A stretch of DNA of 64,000 nucleotides from Gammaproteobacteria bacterium (GTDB lineage: Bacteria > Pseudomonadota > Gammaproteobacteria > Nevskiales > Nevskiaceae). The position numbers were made by a program, and so were the translations under genes. Below, piece by piece: positions 19,113 through 22,230 of the stretch; the first letter of the stretch is position 1, and each line of letters starts with the position of its first letter. The DNA lies in contig JAPLSA010000005.1 in assembly GCA_026398815.1 (NCBI GenBank), forward strand, positions 124,001-188,000, written 5' to 3'. Under the pieces are notes generated by a model. The model saw only the letters and a list, made by a program, of their open reading frames with translations, did not search any database and was not told the origin of the DNA.

Positions 19113-20468
19113 CTACCGGCTGTCGGGCTTGTCTCCGGCGATCCCGAAACGCTCCATGCGCCGGTACAGCGCCTGCCGCGACAGGCCCAGCGACTGCGCC
19201 GCCCGGCTGACCATGCCGCCGGCCCTGGCCAGCGCGGCCAGCACCGCTTCCCGCGAAGGATCGTCGAGCGAGCGTGCCACCGGCCGCGGCTGCACCTGCA
19301 GGCCGAGATCTGCCGGCTGGATCAGCGCCTCCCGGCACAGTAGCCGGGCGCGTTCCAGCACGTTCTTCAGCTCGCGGACATTGCCCGGCCAGCTGTGCTG
19401 GTGCAGCAGCTCGCGGGCCTCGGCGGAGAGACGCACGCCGCTGTCCTCGAGGAAGGCTTCGGCCAGCGCGTCGACATCGTCCATCCGTTCGGCGAGCGGC
19501 GGCAGCTGCAGTTCGATGACATTGAGCCGGTAGTACAGGTCCTCGCGGAAGCGGCCGTCGCGGATCATCTGCGGCAGGTCCGAATTGGTCGCGCTCAGCA
19601 CCCGCACCCGCGCCTTGCGGATGCGGTTCGAGCCGAGCCGCTGGTAGTCGCCGGTCTCCAGCACCCGCAGCAGCTTGACCTGGCCGGCCAGCGGCAGGTT
19701 GCCGATCTCATCCAGAAACAGCGTGCCGCCGTCGGCCTGTTCGAAACGGCCTTCGCGGGCGCGCGTCGAACCGGTGTAGGCACCGGCCTCGGCGCCGAAC
19801 AACTCGGCCTCGGCCAGCTCGCTCGGCAGCGCACCGCAGTTGACCGCCACGAACGGCCCGGCCTTGACCGCCGAGTTGACGTGGATGATCTGGGCGATGC
19901 GCTCCTTGCCGGCGCCGTTCGGCCCGGTGACCAGCACCGGCGCGTTCGAGCGGGCGATCTGGCAGGCCATCGTCACCACCCGCTCGGTGGCATCGGCGGC
20001 GTAGACCAGGCCGCAGAGATCGAAGCGCGCCGCCAGCTGTTCGCGCCTGCGGTTGCGCTCGGTGCGGCGGCGGCTGGCATCGCGGGACGCTTCCGCCAGC
20101 TCCAGCAGGTTTTCGACGGTGGCCAGCAGCTTGGCATCGTCCCAGGGCTTGGCCAGGTAGTCGGCCGCACCGGCCTTGACCAGTTCGACCGCCGTGGCCA
20201 GATCGGTCCAGGCGGTCAGCAGGATCACCGGCAGGTCCGGATTGCGGGCGCGGATGGCGTGGAACAGCGCCGCGCCTTCGGCTCCGGAGGTGGTGTCGGC
20301 AGTGAAGTTCATGTCGGCCACCACCAGACTGACCGGCGTGCGGCTCAGCAGCTCCAGCCCGGCGTCCGGCGAGGCGGCCGTCAACGCCTGGATGTCGTGG
20401 AGCGAGAACAGCAGGCTCAGCGCCTCGCAGACCCCGGGGTTGTCATCGATGATCAGGATGGTGCGCAT
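19113..20468 (-). CDS. Sigma54-dependent response regulator (receiver-AAA+-Fis)
   Basis: 451 residues. The receiver domain has the acidic pair at 8-9, phosphoacceptor Asp52, Thr85 and Lys107. A linker helix leads to an AAA+ domain with a Walker A of unusual form (GPNGAGKE, 182-189, instead of GESGTGKE), a sigma54-contact loop GAYTGS at 229-234 instead of GAFTGA, Walker B LFLDEIG, and the arginine-finger region. It ends in a Fis-type helix-turn-helix. No histidine kinase is encoded nearby. In related bacteria regulators of this subtype accompany MacB/FtsX/HlyD exporter operons; one such operon starts 8.7 kb away in this window behind a sigma54 promoter. It probably activates that operon. The altered loop could lower sigma54 engagement. 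Confidence 0.92.
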
Positions 20469-20644
20469 GGCGATTCGGGCGCGGCGGCAGGTCGCCGTAT
20501 TGTCGTCGAAGCCGCGCCATCGGCGCGCCTGATGGAGACCGCAATGATCCATGCGGCCGCCTTGTCCGAATTGTCAGACAGGTTTGGAAAATGCTGTCGT
20601 CAATTCGTCTTGACAAGCTTCCGGCCGACGGGCCAACCTGCGAC
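20469..20644. other. Intergenic region before the cobalamin riboswitch
   Basis: Divergent promoters for the response regulator (minus) and the riboswitch transcript (plus) must lie here. A perfect TTGACA is present at 20610-20615 on the plus strand, but the matching -10 position is GC-rich and poor. TGTCCGA and TCAGACA half-sites occur around 20562-20580 and recall the palindromes upstream of the exporter operon. No gene is seen. Confidence 0.4.
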
Positions 20645-20830
20645 CGCTTCGGTCATTCGGGGGCCGTCATCCCCGGATGCCAAGAGGGAATCCGGTGCGC
20701 TGGTCGACAGTCATTCCGGAGCTGCCCCCGCAACTGTAAGCGGTGAGTTCGCGTTCCATGCACGCCACGGGTGCCTCGGCATCGGGAAGGCCGCAACGCA
20801 ACGACGACCCGCAAGCCAGGAGACCTGCCG
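20645..20830 (+). ncRNA. Cobalamin riboswitch
   Basis: The plus strand carries the conserved blocks of the adenosylcobalamin-class riboswitch in order and spacing: a 5' GG/CGGGG-CCCCGG stem (20651-20681), AGAGGGAA (20683-20690), CCGGTG (20692-20697), GCTGCCCCCGC (20721-20731) with AACTGTAAGCGG (20732-20743), GCCAC (20764-20768), GGGAAGGC (20784-20791), GACCCGC (20806-20812) and AGCCAGGAGACCTGCC (20814-20829). The only downstream gene on this strand is the BLUF photoreceptor, whose AGGGG ribosome site is about 110 bases further on. No T-rich terminator follows, so control is more likely at translation or through Rho. Boundaries are approximate. Confidence 0.95.
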
Positions 20831-20952
20831 ACGCAAGAACAATAGTCCTCGGGCGGGGTGCACCGGCCGGACGCTTTCCCGATACTGGCGCCCGCCAGCA
20901 CCGGGGCGCGTTTGCCGGGCTGCTCGGGACAACAGTGCTGAGGGGACACACC

Positions 20953-22230
20953 GTGCAGACATCACGCTCATCGACAACCGAATCCTTGCGGGTCCGCGAC
21001 GCGGTTGCGCCTGCTCTCTGGTCGCTGGTCTACCACAGCCAGGTTCGCCGGCCGATGTCCGACGATGACCTGGCCCGTCTGCAGCGGGCCGCCGCCGCGC
21101 GCAACCGCGCCGAAGGGCTGACCGGCCTGCTGATCTACGACAACGGCCGCTTCTTCCAGTGGCTCGAAGGCCCGGAGGAAAGCCTCGAAAAAGTCTGGCA
21201 GTCGATCCAGCGTGATCCCCGCCACGGCGCGATCGACCTGCTCGGCCGCACCCAGACGCCGGTGCGCTGCTTCGGCGAATGGGACATGAAGCTGTCGACC
21301 CGCAGCCTGACGCAGCAGAAGACCAACGCCGGTTTCATCCACCTGCCGCCGACCCTGATCGACACGCTGAACCGTCGCCCGCATGCCGCCGCCGAACTGC
21401 TGGCGTCGATGGCGATCCGCTCGCCGGTGGTGATCGCCCGCGAGCCCTTGCTGGTCGGTGGAGGCGGCCGGGCACCCTTGCCGCGACCGAAGCACGATGT
21501 GCTCAAGAACGTCGTCGAATCGGTGCTGGTGCCGCAGCTGGCCGCCCTGCATGTCGACAGCGTGACGCTGCCGGCCGTCGACCCGCGCATCGCCGAACTC
21601 GCCCGCCTGCTGGTCGCCACCGATCCGGAAAGCGGCCTGGCGCGGATGGCCGAGCTGCAGGCGCTGTCGCAGTCGATCAGCGTGCTGAGCCGCGATCTCT
21701 ACGAGCCGCTGGCGCGCAGCCTCGGCGACCTGTGGATCGACGACGACTGCACCGAGCTGGAAATGACCGTGGCGCTGTGCCGCGTGCAATCGGCGATGCG
21801 CCAGTCGACCAGCGCCGCGCAACGGCTGCCGGTGGCGAATCTTCCGGCCGTGCTGGTGACGCCGCAGCCGGGCGAGCTGCATCGGCTCGGCGCCAGCCTC
21901 GACGCCGAAGTGCTGTGGCAGGCCGGCTGGAACACGCAGTACGAGGCGCCGGCCACCGACGCGGCGCTCGAACAGCTGGTGGCCGACACCTGGTTCGATG
22001 CCCTCGACCTGTCGCTCAGCTCCTCGCTGCACCGCGAGCAGTGGCTGCCGCGAATGGCGCAGACCATCCGCCATGTTCGCGATGCATCCCGCAATCCTCA
22101 GCTGGTGGTGGTGGTCGGCGGCCGGGTGTTCCACGAACGCGAGGAAACCGGCACCGACATCGGCGCCGACGCCGGCAACCGTTCGGCACCGCTGCTGGCG
22201 GCCAAGATCATGGCGTCGCTGAAGCGCTGA
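20953..22230 (+). CDS. BLUF photoreceptor with AppA/PpaA-like cobalamin- or heme-binding domain
   Basis: 425 residues from GTG 20953, which has AGGGG seven bases upstream. Residues about 21-115 are a BLUF domain that binds FAD and senses blue light, with Tyr27, Asn51, Gln69 and Trp110/Met112 at the photocycle positions and the FFQWLEGP and RDPRHGAI blocks. A linker leads to a helical bundle (LARSLGDLWIDDDCTELEMT, 254-273) and a B12-binding-like Rossmann domain with GELHRLG (Glu308-x-His310-x-x-Gly313), a variant of DxHxxG, and VVVVGG (385-390). This arrangement matches AppA of purple bacteria, whose SCHIC domain binds heme, and relatives PpaA/AerR that bind cobalamin. No DNA-binding domain is present, so it should act on a partner repressor. 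It is preceded by a cobalamin riboswitch, which suggests that its own ligand, or B12 status, sets its level. Confidence 0.92.
   Translation: MQTSRSSTTESLRVRDAVAPALWSLVYHSQVRRPMSDDDLARLQRAAAARNRAEGLTGLLIYDNGRFFQWLEGPEESLEKVWQSIQRDPRHGAIDLLGRTQTPVRCFGEWDMKLSTRSLTQQKTNAGFIHLPPTLIDTLNRRPHAAAELLASMAIRSPVVIAREPLLVGGGGRAPLPRPKHDVLKNVVESVLVPQLAALHVDSVTLPAVDPRIAELARLLVATDPESGLARMAELQALSQSISVLSRDLYEPLARSLGDLWIDDDCTELEMTVALCRVQSAMRQSTSAAQRLPVANLPAVLVTPQPGELHRLGASLDAEVLWQAGWNTQYEAPATDAALEQLVADTWFDALDLSLSSSLHREQWLPRMAQTIRHVRDASRNPQLVVVVGGRVFHEREETGTDIGADAGNRSAPLLAAKIMASLKR

Follow-up and report, generated by a model that had tools for sequence, protein, structure and literature searches.

A cobalamin riboswitch in front of a BLUF-SCHIC photoreceptor gene in a phototrophic Nevskia

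The riboswitch leader and the BLUF-SCHIC gene

The window, i.e. the whole stretch of 64,000 nucleotides that was analysed, belongs to the genome of a phototrophic Nevskia, the genus being given by related loci. It carries a cobalamin riboswitch directly followed by a gene for a BLUF-SCHIC protein. The locus comprises the following features.

20610..20615, plus strand: candidate -35 element TTGACA, a conserved hexamer just 5' of the riboswitch (leader alignment)
20633..20846, plus strand: cobalamin riboswitch aptamer, RF00174 (cmscan)
20724..20731, plus strand: aptamer L5, GCCCCCGC, proposed kissing partner (sequence; complements part of 20851-20861)
20845..20872, plus strand: P13-like hairpin GTCC-CGG / CCG-GGAC, whose loop contains GCGGGGTGC (L13) (alignment and fold)
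20940..20945, plus strand: ribosome-binding site GAGGGG (sequence)
20953..22230, plus strand: BLUF-SCHIC (AppA/AerR-like) gene, 425 aa, GTG start, TGA stop (Pfam, Foldseek)
21019..21291, plus strand: BLUF domain, residues 23-113 (Pfam)
21583..22230, plus strand: helical cap and Rossmann domain of the AerR/AppA (SCHIC) type, with Trp261, Glu308 and His310 (phmmer, model)

The search of the whole window with cmscan returned two matches at gathering thresholds. One of them is RF00174 at 20633-20846 (+), with 113.4 bits (gathering 31.5) and E 1.2e-27, which takes in all 189 model positions (1-189), i.e. the full-length aptamer. The model R1 gave this aptamer 162.9 bits, the window itself being among the sequences from which R1 was built. 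An earlier reading made from the letters of the window (the sequence-only reading) had described a near-complete cobalamin riboswitch directly before a BLUF protein with a domain of the cobalamin-binding fold, and both parts of this description hold. The extent that it proposed, 20645-22230, began 12 nt inside the aptamer but ended at the true stop codon, and its gap of about 120 bases measures 106 nt from the aptamer end to the GTG. It rightly placed no B12 gene in between: a missed one was rejected on account of this short gap and of the start codon, since the GTG at 20953 aligns with GTG or ATG in five other Nevskia leaders. The open reading frames listed across the gap are long overlapping frames on both strands and were judged to be shadow frames. 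A riboswitch serving the divergent gene was also rejected, the riboswitch being on the plus strand and the response regulator on the minus strand. This NtrC-like response regulator (19113-20552, minus strand) has a similar gene at the same place in the genomes G011 and G016.

The hexamer TTGACA is kept in all five Nevskia leaders that are long enough and in two of three alphaproteobacterial leaders, the third having TTGACG. No full promoter came out of a simple sigma-70 scan. The P13-like hairpin reaches -9.2 kcal/mol in a constrained local fold, and GGCGGGGTGC in its L13 loop is invariant in 9/9 aligned leaders, the decayed and contig-edge copies included. L5 (GCCCCCGC) and L13 (GGCGGGGTGC) can be paired as a kissing loop, an assignment made by sequence complementarity alone. 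When P13 is formed, the modelled accessibility of the Shine-Dalgarno sequence is slightly lower in four of six leaders, unchanged in one and higher in one, the copy with a deleted aptamer. No intrinsic terminator was found in the leader, for which reason control by such a terminator was rejected. An alignment of 31 riboswitches, fitted to the structure and including 11 that precede BLUF or metE genes (the window among them), had 96.1% of cells paired against a shuffled mean of 79.1%, and two-sided changes in 24 of 37 pairs against a shuffled mean of 17.0. At 20769, in GCCACTG, the window aptamer has a G where the other three Nevskia copies that precede BLUF genes have T. The leader is predicted to bind cobalamin and to change expression in response to it.

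The BLUF domain scores 88.5 bits with Pfam. Tyr27, Asn51, Gln69 and Trp110 are presumably its flavin-site residues; the first three have matching Tyr, Asn and Gln in 47/47 relatives and the last is Trp in 45/47. The structure model used was computed from 47 relatives (pLDDT 81.8), a poor earlier model from six sequences (pLDDT 38.5) being set aside, and every ten-residue block from residue 211 on has a pLDDT of at least 85. Its closest whole-chain structure by Foldseek is AppA 4hh0, matched along both domains (E 6e-23). The TM score is 0.71 (by target length) against the AerR crystal structure and 0.79 against the AppA SCHIC domain, and with phmmer the C-terminal domain matches AerR 7te2 (E 8.9e-11) and AppA 4heh (E 1.8e-10).

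Cofactor of the C-terminal domain

AppA_SCHIC is the sole Pfam family above its cut-off for the C-terminal domain, by 0.1 bit (28.7 against 28.6, residues 296-418). The B12-binding family PF02310 stays under its cut-off (26.2 against 32.1 bits) in the window protein and is over it in the AerR-like protein of the same genome. Among five other riboswitch-linked proteins scanned, only that of Roseicella passes the AppA_SCHIC cut-off.

In AerR the lower cobalt ligand is His145 and B12 is capped by Trp94 and Phe101; the heme ligand His284 of AppA is shifted by two residues, and a loop in AppA hinders B12 (PMC9144470). The corresponding motif is PGELHRLG in the window protein, PGEQHTLG in Rhodobacter capsulatus AerR and PGHKPILE in AppA. 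Glu308 and His310, which make up the AerR-type PGExH, are found in 47/47 relatives. AppA His284 aligns with Glu308 and is Glu in 47/47, so that the heme ligand of AppA is missing here. The alignment places the conserved His in the AerR register, the AppA His lying two residues earlier with Pro at the AerR place. Glu308, His310 and Gly313 had been correctly located by the sequence-only reading, as had the retention of the metal-ligating His, which is of the cobalt-ligand type; the D-to-E change that it pointed out is a form already present in R. capsulatus AerR. The place of AerR Trp94 is taken by Trp261, which is Trp in 42/47 relatives and Ser in Roseicella despite its riboswitch. Phe101 of AerR corresponds to Glu268 in the window and to E, D, G, S or A across the 47 relatives. 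In the printed alignments, the beta3-alpha3 stretch has the length of AppA, one residue longer than AerR. CarH-type photoreceptors have been given the signature GxxW, EH, GxxH, GxxxP (PMC11796333). By eye, GxxW and GxxH are present in the window protein. At what we take to be the spacing of EH in CarH, it has Met271-Thr272 and no EH. Judging from these residues, cobalamin is more likely than heme to be the cofactor of this domain.

Distribution and genome context

The same arrangement, which the sequence-only reading had proposed to seek in related genomes, recurs. A riboswitch over the Rfam threshold precedes 8/54 BLUF-SCHIC genes, the window included: four from Nevskia (G000, G013, G019 and G016; Gammaproteobacteria) and four from alphaproteobacteria. 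The latter are Aquibium carbonis (121.8 bits), G133 from Roseicella's family (114.6), Roseicella frigidaeris (104.8) and Plastoroseomonas arctica, whose copy is decayed (42.2). The 54 genes are a set of 51 plus three further ones. The 46 genes without a riboswitch over threshold include that of G025 (L077), which lies at a contig edge with a leader of only ~130 bp; its riboswitch cannot be judged because the contig ends. The aptamer is kept in four Nevskia, in one of which the protein is only 47% identical to the window's, and its distance from the gene is 106-113 nt in six of the seven other loci and 72 nt in Plastoroseomonas, with the starts as assigned by us. Around 22 loci that have the C-terminal module alone, R1 detected no riboswitch in flanks of up to 1.5 kb (shorter at contig ends). 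The analysis left out 29 of 80 loci (L119-L122, L128, L131-L154), mostly BLUF-only matches. L129 and L130 are out of the protein tree; L127 is in this tree and absent from A4, as are L091 and L109, two wrong-frame sequences that are outliers in the tree.

A candidate natural deletion of the riboswitch core was seen in the DNA alignment in G011 (L007:1231-1332), where a 5' portion, a stretch resembling the B12 box and the L13 hairpin remain (R1 E 0.15). L084 has a tentative remnant at the same place (R1 E 0.029). Even with E allowed up to 10, Rfam picks up neither.

BLUF-SCHIC genes were found in 6/18 Nevskia genomes, namely in 6/8 with pufLM and 0/10 without (Fisher p 0.0015, indicative only since the genomes are related); the phototrophic Nevskia G017 and G027 have none. 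In a sample of 347 genomes from Roseicella's family there are 17 carriers (full-length match at E up to 1e-40, by our reading of the matches), and 17/17 have pufLM over cut-off as compared with 108/347 (p 1e-9). A separate, overlapping set of carrier genomes has pufLM in 41/44, with G069, G079 and G098 as exceptions. Among 297 genomes of the Aquibium family, a full-length match (E up to 1e-40) exists only in Aquibium. These counts are indicative of a gene that tracks phototrophy.

The sequence-only reading had noted a lack of photosynthesis genes in the window, but the genome is that of a phototroph. Outside the window are found pufL/M and, on contig C23, an AerR-like gene, ppsR (TIGR02040, 538 bits), bchG and bchP, so that the PpsR/CrtJ-like partner for which it suggested a search does exist. 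The BLUF-SCHIC gene lies on contig C14 and ppsR and the aerR-like gene are adjacent on C23; it is thus not encoded next to ppsR. PpsR was found in 20/20 chosen carriers and a separate AerR-like gene in 19/20, each time beside a PpsR match. In a model-based proposal, Thr105, Ser109 and Gln112 of AerR face conserved residues of the CrtJ Q-linker (PMC9144470). The window protein has Thr272, Cys276 (for Ser109) and Gln279 at these places, and of 47 relatives 36 have the Thr and 41 the Gln; Gln279 becomes Leu in Aquibium and Roseicella, and Thr272 becomes Asp in Roseicella. The Q-linker pattern of CrtJ, as given in PMC9144470, is present in the PpsR of the window's genome; these residues are said to be universal in CrtJ and are therefore weak evidence for a PpsR contact. 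Contact and linker residues are compatible with PpsR binding by the window protein.

In each of the six Nevskia with the BLUF gene there is a second PpsR-like match, which ends at about position 361 (359-368) of a model of 442 positions (e.g. G000:C23:543595-544671 and L074:14781-15992). Three of the six exceed the cut-off of the model, and the G016 protein ends at that point, without HTH. A non-DNA-binding partner of PpsR is possible. A role via the B12-dependent BchE is not supported, its cut-off being exceeded only in G023 among Nevskia and G016 having AcsF. The G023 match (G023:C215:16600-17931) comes from a genome where pufLM was not found.

Two cobalamin riboswitches exist in the window's genome, one before the BLUF gene and one before a btuB-like gene whose best match is the B12 receptor model, under its cut-off. 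CbiC was found in 0/18 Nevskia genomes by a search whose control was positive in 7/14, and therefore no de novo B12 synthesis is suggested; together with the btuB-like gene under its own riboswitch, this suggests that Nevskia B12 is imported. Twenty other Nevskia riboswitches were labelled btuB by script. HMM checks on the gene downstream of four of these, and of one additional copy, gave the B12 receptor model as best match in all five cases, always under cut-off. The Nevskia G017 (L067) and G013 (L069) have an additional riboswitch that is followed by a gene resembling the B12 receptor and by cobalamin genes. CobB exceeds its HMM cut-off beside the riboswitch-linked receptor in G017, which points to corrinoid salvage, the other cobalamin genes of the two loci having been named by eye.

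Three alphaproteobacteria have a metE gene with its own riboswitch in the neighbourhood of the BLUF-SCHIC gene. In G133 metE follows immediately on the same strand; in Plastoroseomonas and Roseicella it is encoded on the other strand, in Roseicella with a gene in between. Identity of the four Nevskia BLUF riboswitches is 64-67% with the metE copy of Roseicella, 57-62% with the BLUF copy of Aquibium, 56-66% with the BLUF copies of Roseicella and G133 and the metE copy of Plastoroseomonas, 52-57% with the metE copy of G133 and 50-54% with the decayed copy of Plastoroseomonas. Compared with the 20 other riboswitches in Nevskia, they reach means of 50-53% and maxima of 54-58%. In the riboswitch tree, a branch with support 98.8/99 sets the BLUF/metE group apart, support being weaker further in, and within a genome the BLUF copy and the metE copy are not closest to one another. 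The riboswitch label takes five changes on the protein tree, of which starred branches force at least three. The BLUF riboswitches may have arisen by transfer or by repeated recruitment; transfer is a lead only, because the inner support is modest and Nevskia alone represents the gammaproteobacterial riboswitches in the tree.

Regulatory readings of the locus

The reading that we prefer, to which we give about an even chance, is that a B12-responsive leader controls a PpsR antirepressor of the AppA/AerR type, which would stand in for the B12-dependent AerR when B12 is scarce. Cobalamin would bind the leader aptamer and stabilise the L5-L13 kissing interaction, and the bound leader would lower expression as typical cobalamin riboswitches do. 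Scarce B12 would thus give more BLUF-SCHIC protein, which would sense blue light through its flavin and engage PpsR through its AerR/SCHIC module. The photosystem genes could then stay adjustable while the B12-dependent AerR lacks its cofactor, the metE/metH logic being transferred to a photoreceptor. A second B12 input is possible if the C-terminal domain, too, binds cobalamin. Cobalamin riboswitches are described as repressing the B12-independent isozyme of a B12-dependent enzyme (PMC9600662). In Dinoroseobacter, cobalamin is needed for the PpaA-PpsR interaction and a flavin-based antirepressor is also present (PMC10890935). It is from these two descriptions and from the nearby riboswitch-metE genes that a B12-sparing antirepressor is proposed. 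A strict stand-in would not require the cobalamin-ligand His, which is nevertheless found in 47/47. Also against this reading are the 46/54 BLUF-SCHIC genes that lack a riboswitch over threshold (a single one owing to a contig end), the two phototrophic Nevskia without the gene, the mixed outcome of the modelled Shine-Dalgarno accessibility and the proposed contact residues that Aquibium and Roseicella do not keep.

Cobalamin could instead act twice, as the sequence-only reading had suggested, with the RNA setting how much protein is made and the C-terminal domain how active it is. The switch would then be a supply-matching feedback on a joint light/B12 sensor. The invariant PGExH pair and the Trp at the Trp94 place in 42/47 argue for such a double role, as do GxxW and GxxH of the PMC11796333 signature, seen by eye, and the difference from AppA, whose His lies two residues earlier (PMC9144470). 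The loss of AerR Phe101 in the window protein and the 47 relatives, the AppA-like length of the beta3-alpha3 stretch, the Ser for the cap Trp in the riboswitch-linked Roseicella protein and a PF02310 score that only the AerR-like protein of the genome brings over cut-off weigh against it, and we hold it to be possible, with a chance of perhaps one in a few. A B12-repressible switch is accounted for no less well by the stand-in logic than by the same ligand at RNA and protein. Much the same limited credence goes to a broader proposal, in which a single flavin/B12 light sensor, subject to B12 both through the aptamer and through its C-terminal domain, would compete or cooperate with AerR at PpsR, riboswitch and photoreceptor being a portable unit common to alpha- and gammaproteobacteria.

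That the protein is a heme-binding homologue of AppA, with a riboswitch that only sets its dose, would agree with 4hh0 as nearest whole-chain structure (E 6e-23), with AppA_SCHIC alone over its Pfam cut-off and with the loop length. It is made unlikely by Glu at the His284 place in 47/47, by a conserved His in the AerR register and by the AppA_SCHIC cut-off being passed by Roseicella only among the five other riboswitch-linked proteins. Less probable still is a metE-type riboswitch copied or moved beside the BLUF gene with little regulatory effect. Riboswitch-metE genes do lie near it in three alphaproteobacteria, and one decayed copy and two candidate remnants fit such a bystander. However, the aptamer persists in four Nevskia, one with the 47% identical protein, spacing and L13 are kept, carriers belong to two classes, and a genome's BLUF riboswitch is not closest to its metE one.

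The preferred reading can be set beside several known systems. AppA, the PpsR antirepressor of Rhodobacter sphaeroides, shares with the window protein the order of BLUF then SCHIC, the whole-chain fold and the BLUF residues, and PpsR is likewise encoded in the window's genome; the window protein may be a PpsR antirepressor as well. It differs from AppA by an AerR-type His in place of the shifted heme His. AppA was compared as a protein, the upstream B12 riboswitch being a feature of the window gene. AerR/PpaA, the B12-binding partner of CrtJ/PpsR, is alike in the C-terminal module, PGExHxLG, the cap Trp and the proposed contact Thr and Gln, whereas the window protein adds a BLUF domain, is without Phe101 and has a riboswitch upstream. 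Riboswitch-controlled metE, the counterpart of MetH, is alike in the RNA family, the proposed stand-in logic and its proximity in three genomes, and differs in that it encodes an enzyme and the window gene a photoreceptor/regulator. LdaP of Dinoroseobacter shibae is also a flavin-based PpsR antirepressor beside a B12-dependent PpaA, with LOV instead of BLUF and a SCHIC domain that goes unmentioned in the portion of PMC10890935 available to us, whose main text has 0 occurrences of the word 'riboswitch'.

Neither the RNA family nor the fold is new, and the combination of BLUF with B12-binding is listed in a table row of PMC8508746. In the open-licence papers searched, as far as their text was accessible, no riboswitch-controlled BLUF photoreceptor gene was found, in line with the sequence-only reading, which knew of none; papers in which BLUF, cobalamin and riboswitch occur together and whose text was inspected use 'bluF' for a B12-synthesis gene or, in a table of predictions, for a gene of E. 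coli, or mention riboswitches only in general terms. Photosynthesis control has been linked to B12 by the binding of the vitamin to the AerR/PpaA proteins. If a light-sensing antirepressor is also under a B12-sensing RNA, control at the RNA level joins in, and the effect of B12 supply on bacterial phototrophy gains an explanation; this offers a testable claim on why phototrophs keep two antirepressors. If B12 does act at both levels, aerobic phototrophs that import B12 would make their photosystem under the joint control of light and of the B12 in their environment. Overall, B12 supply may set the light response in these phototrophs.
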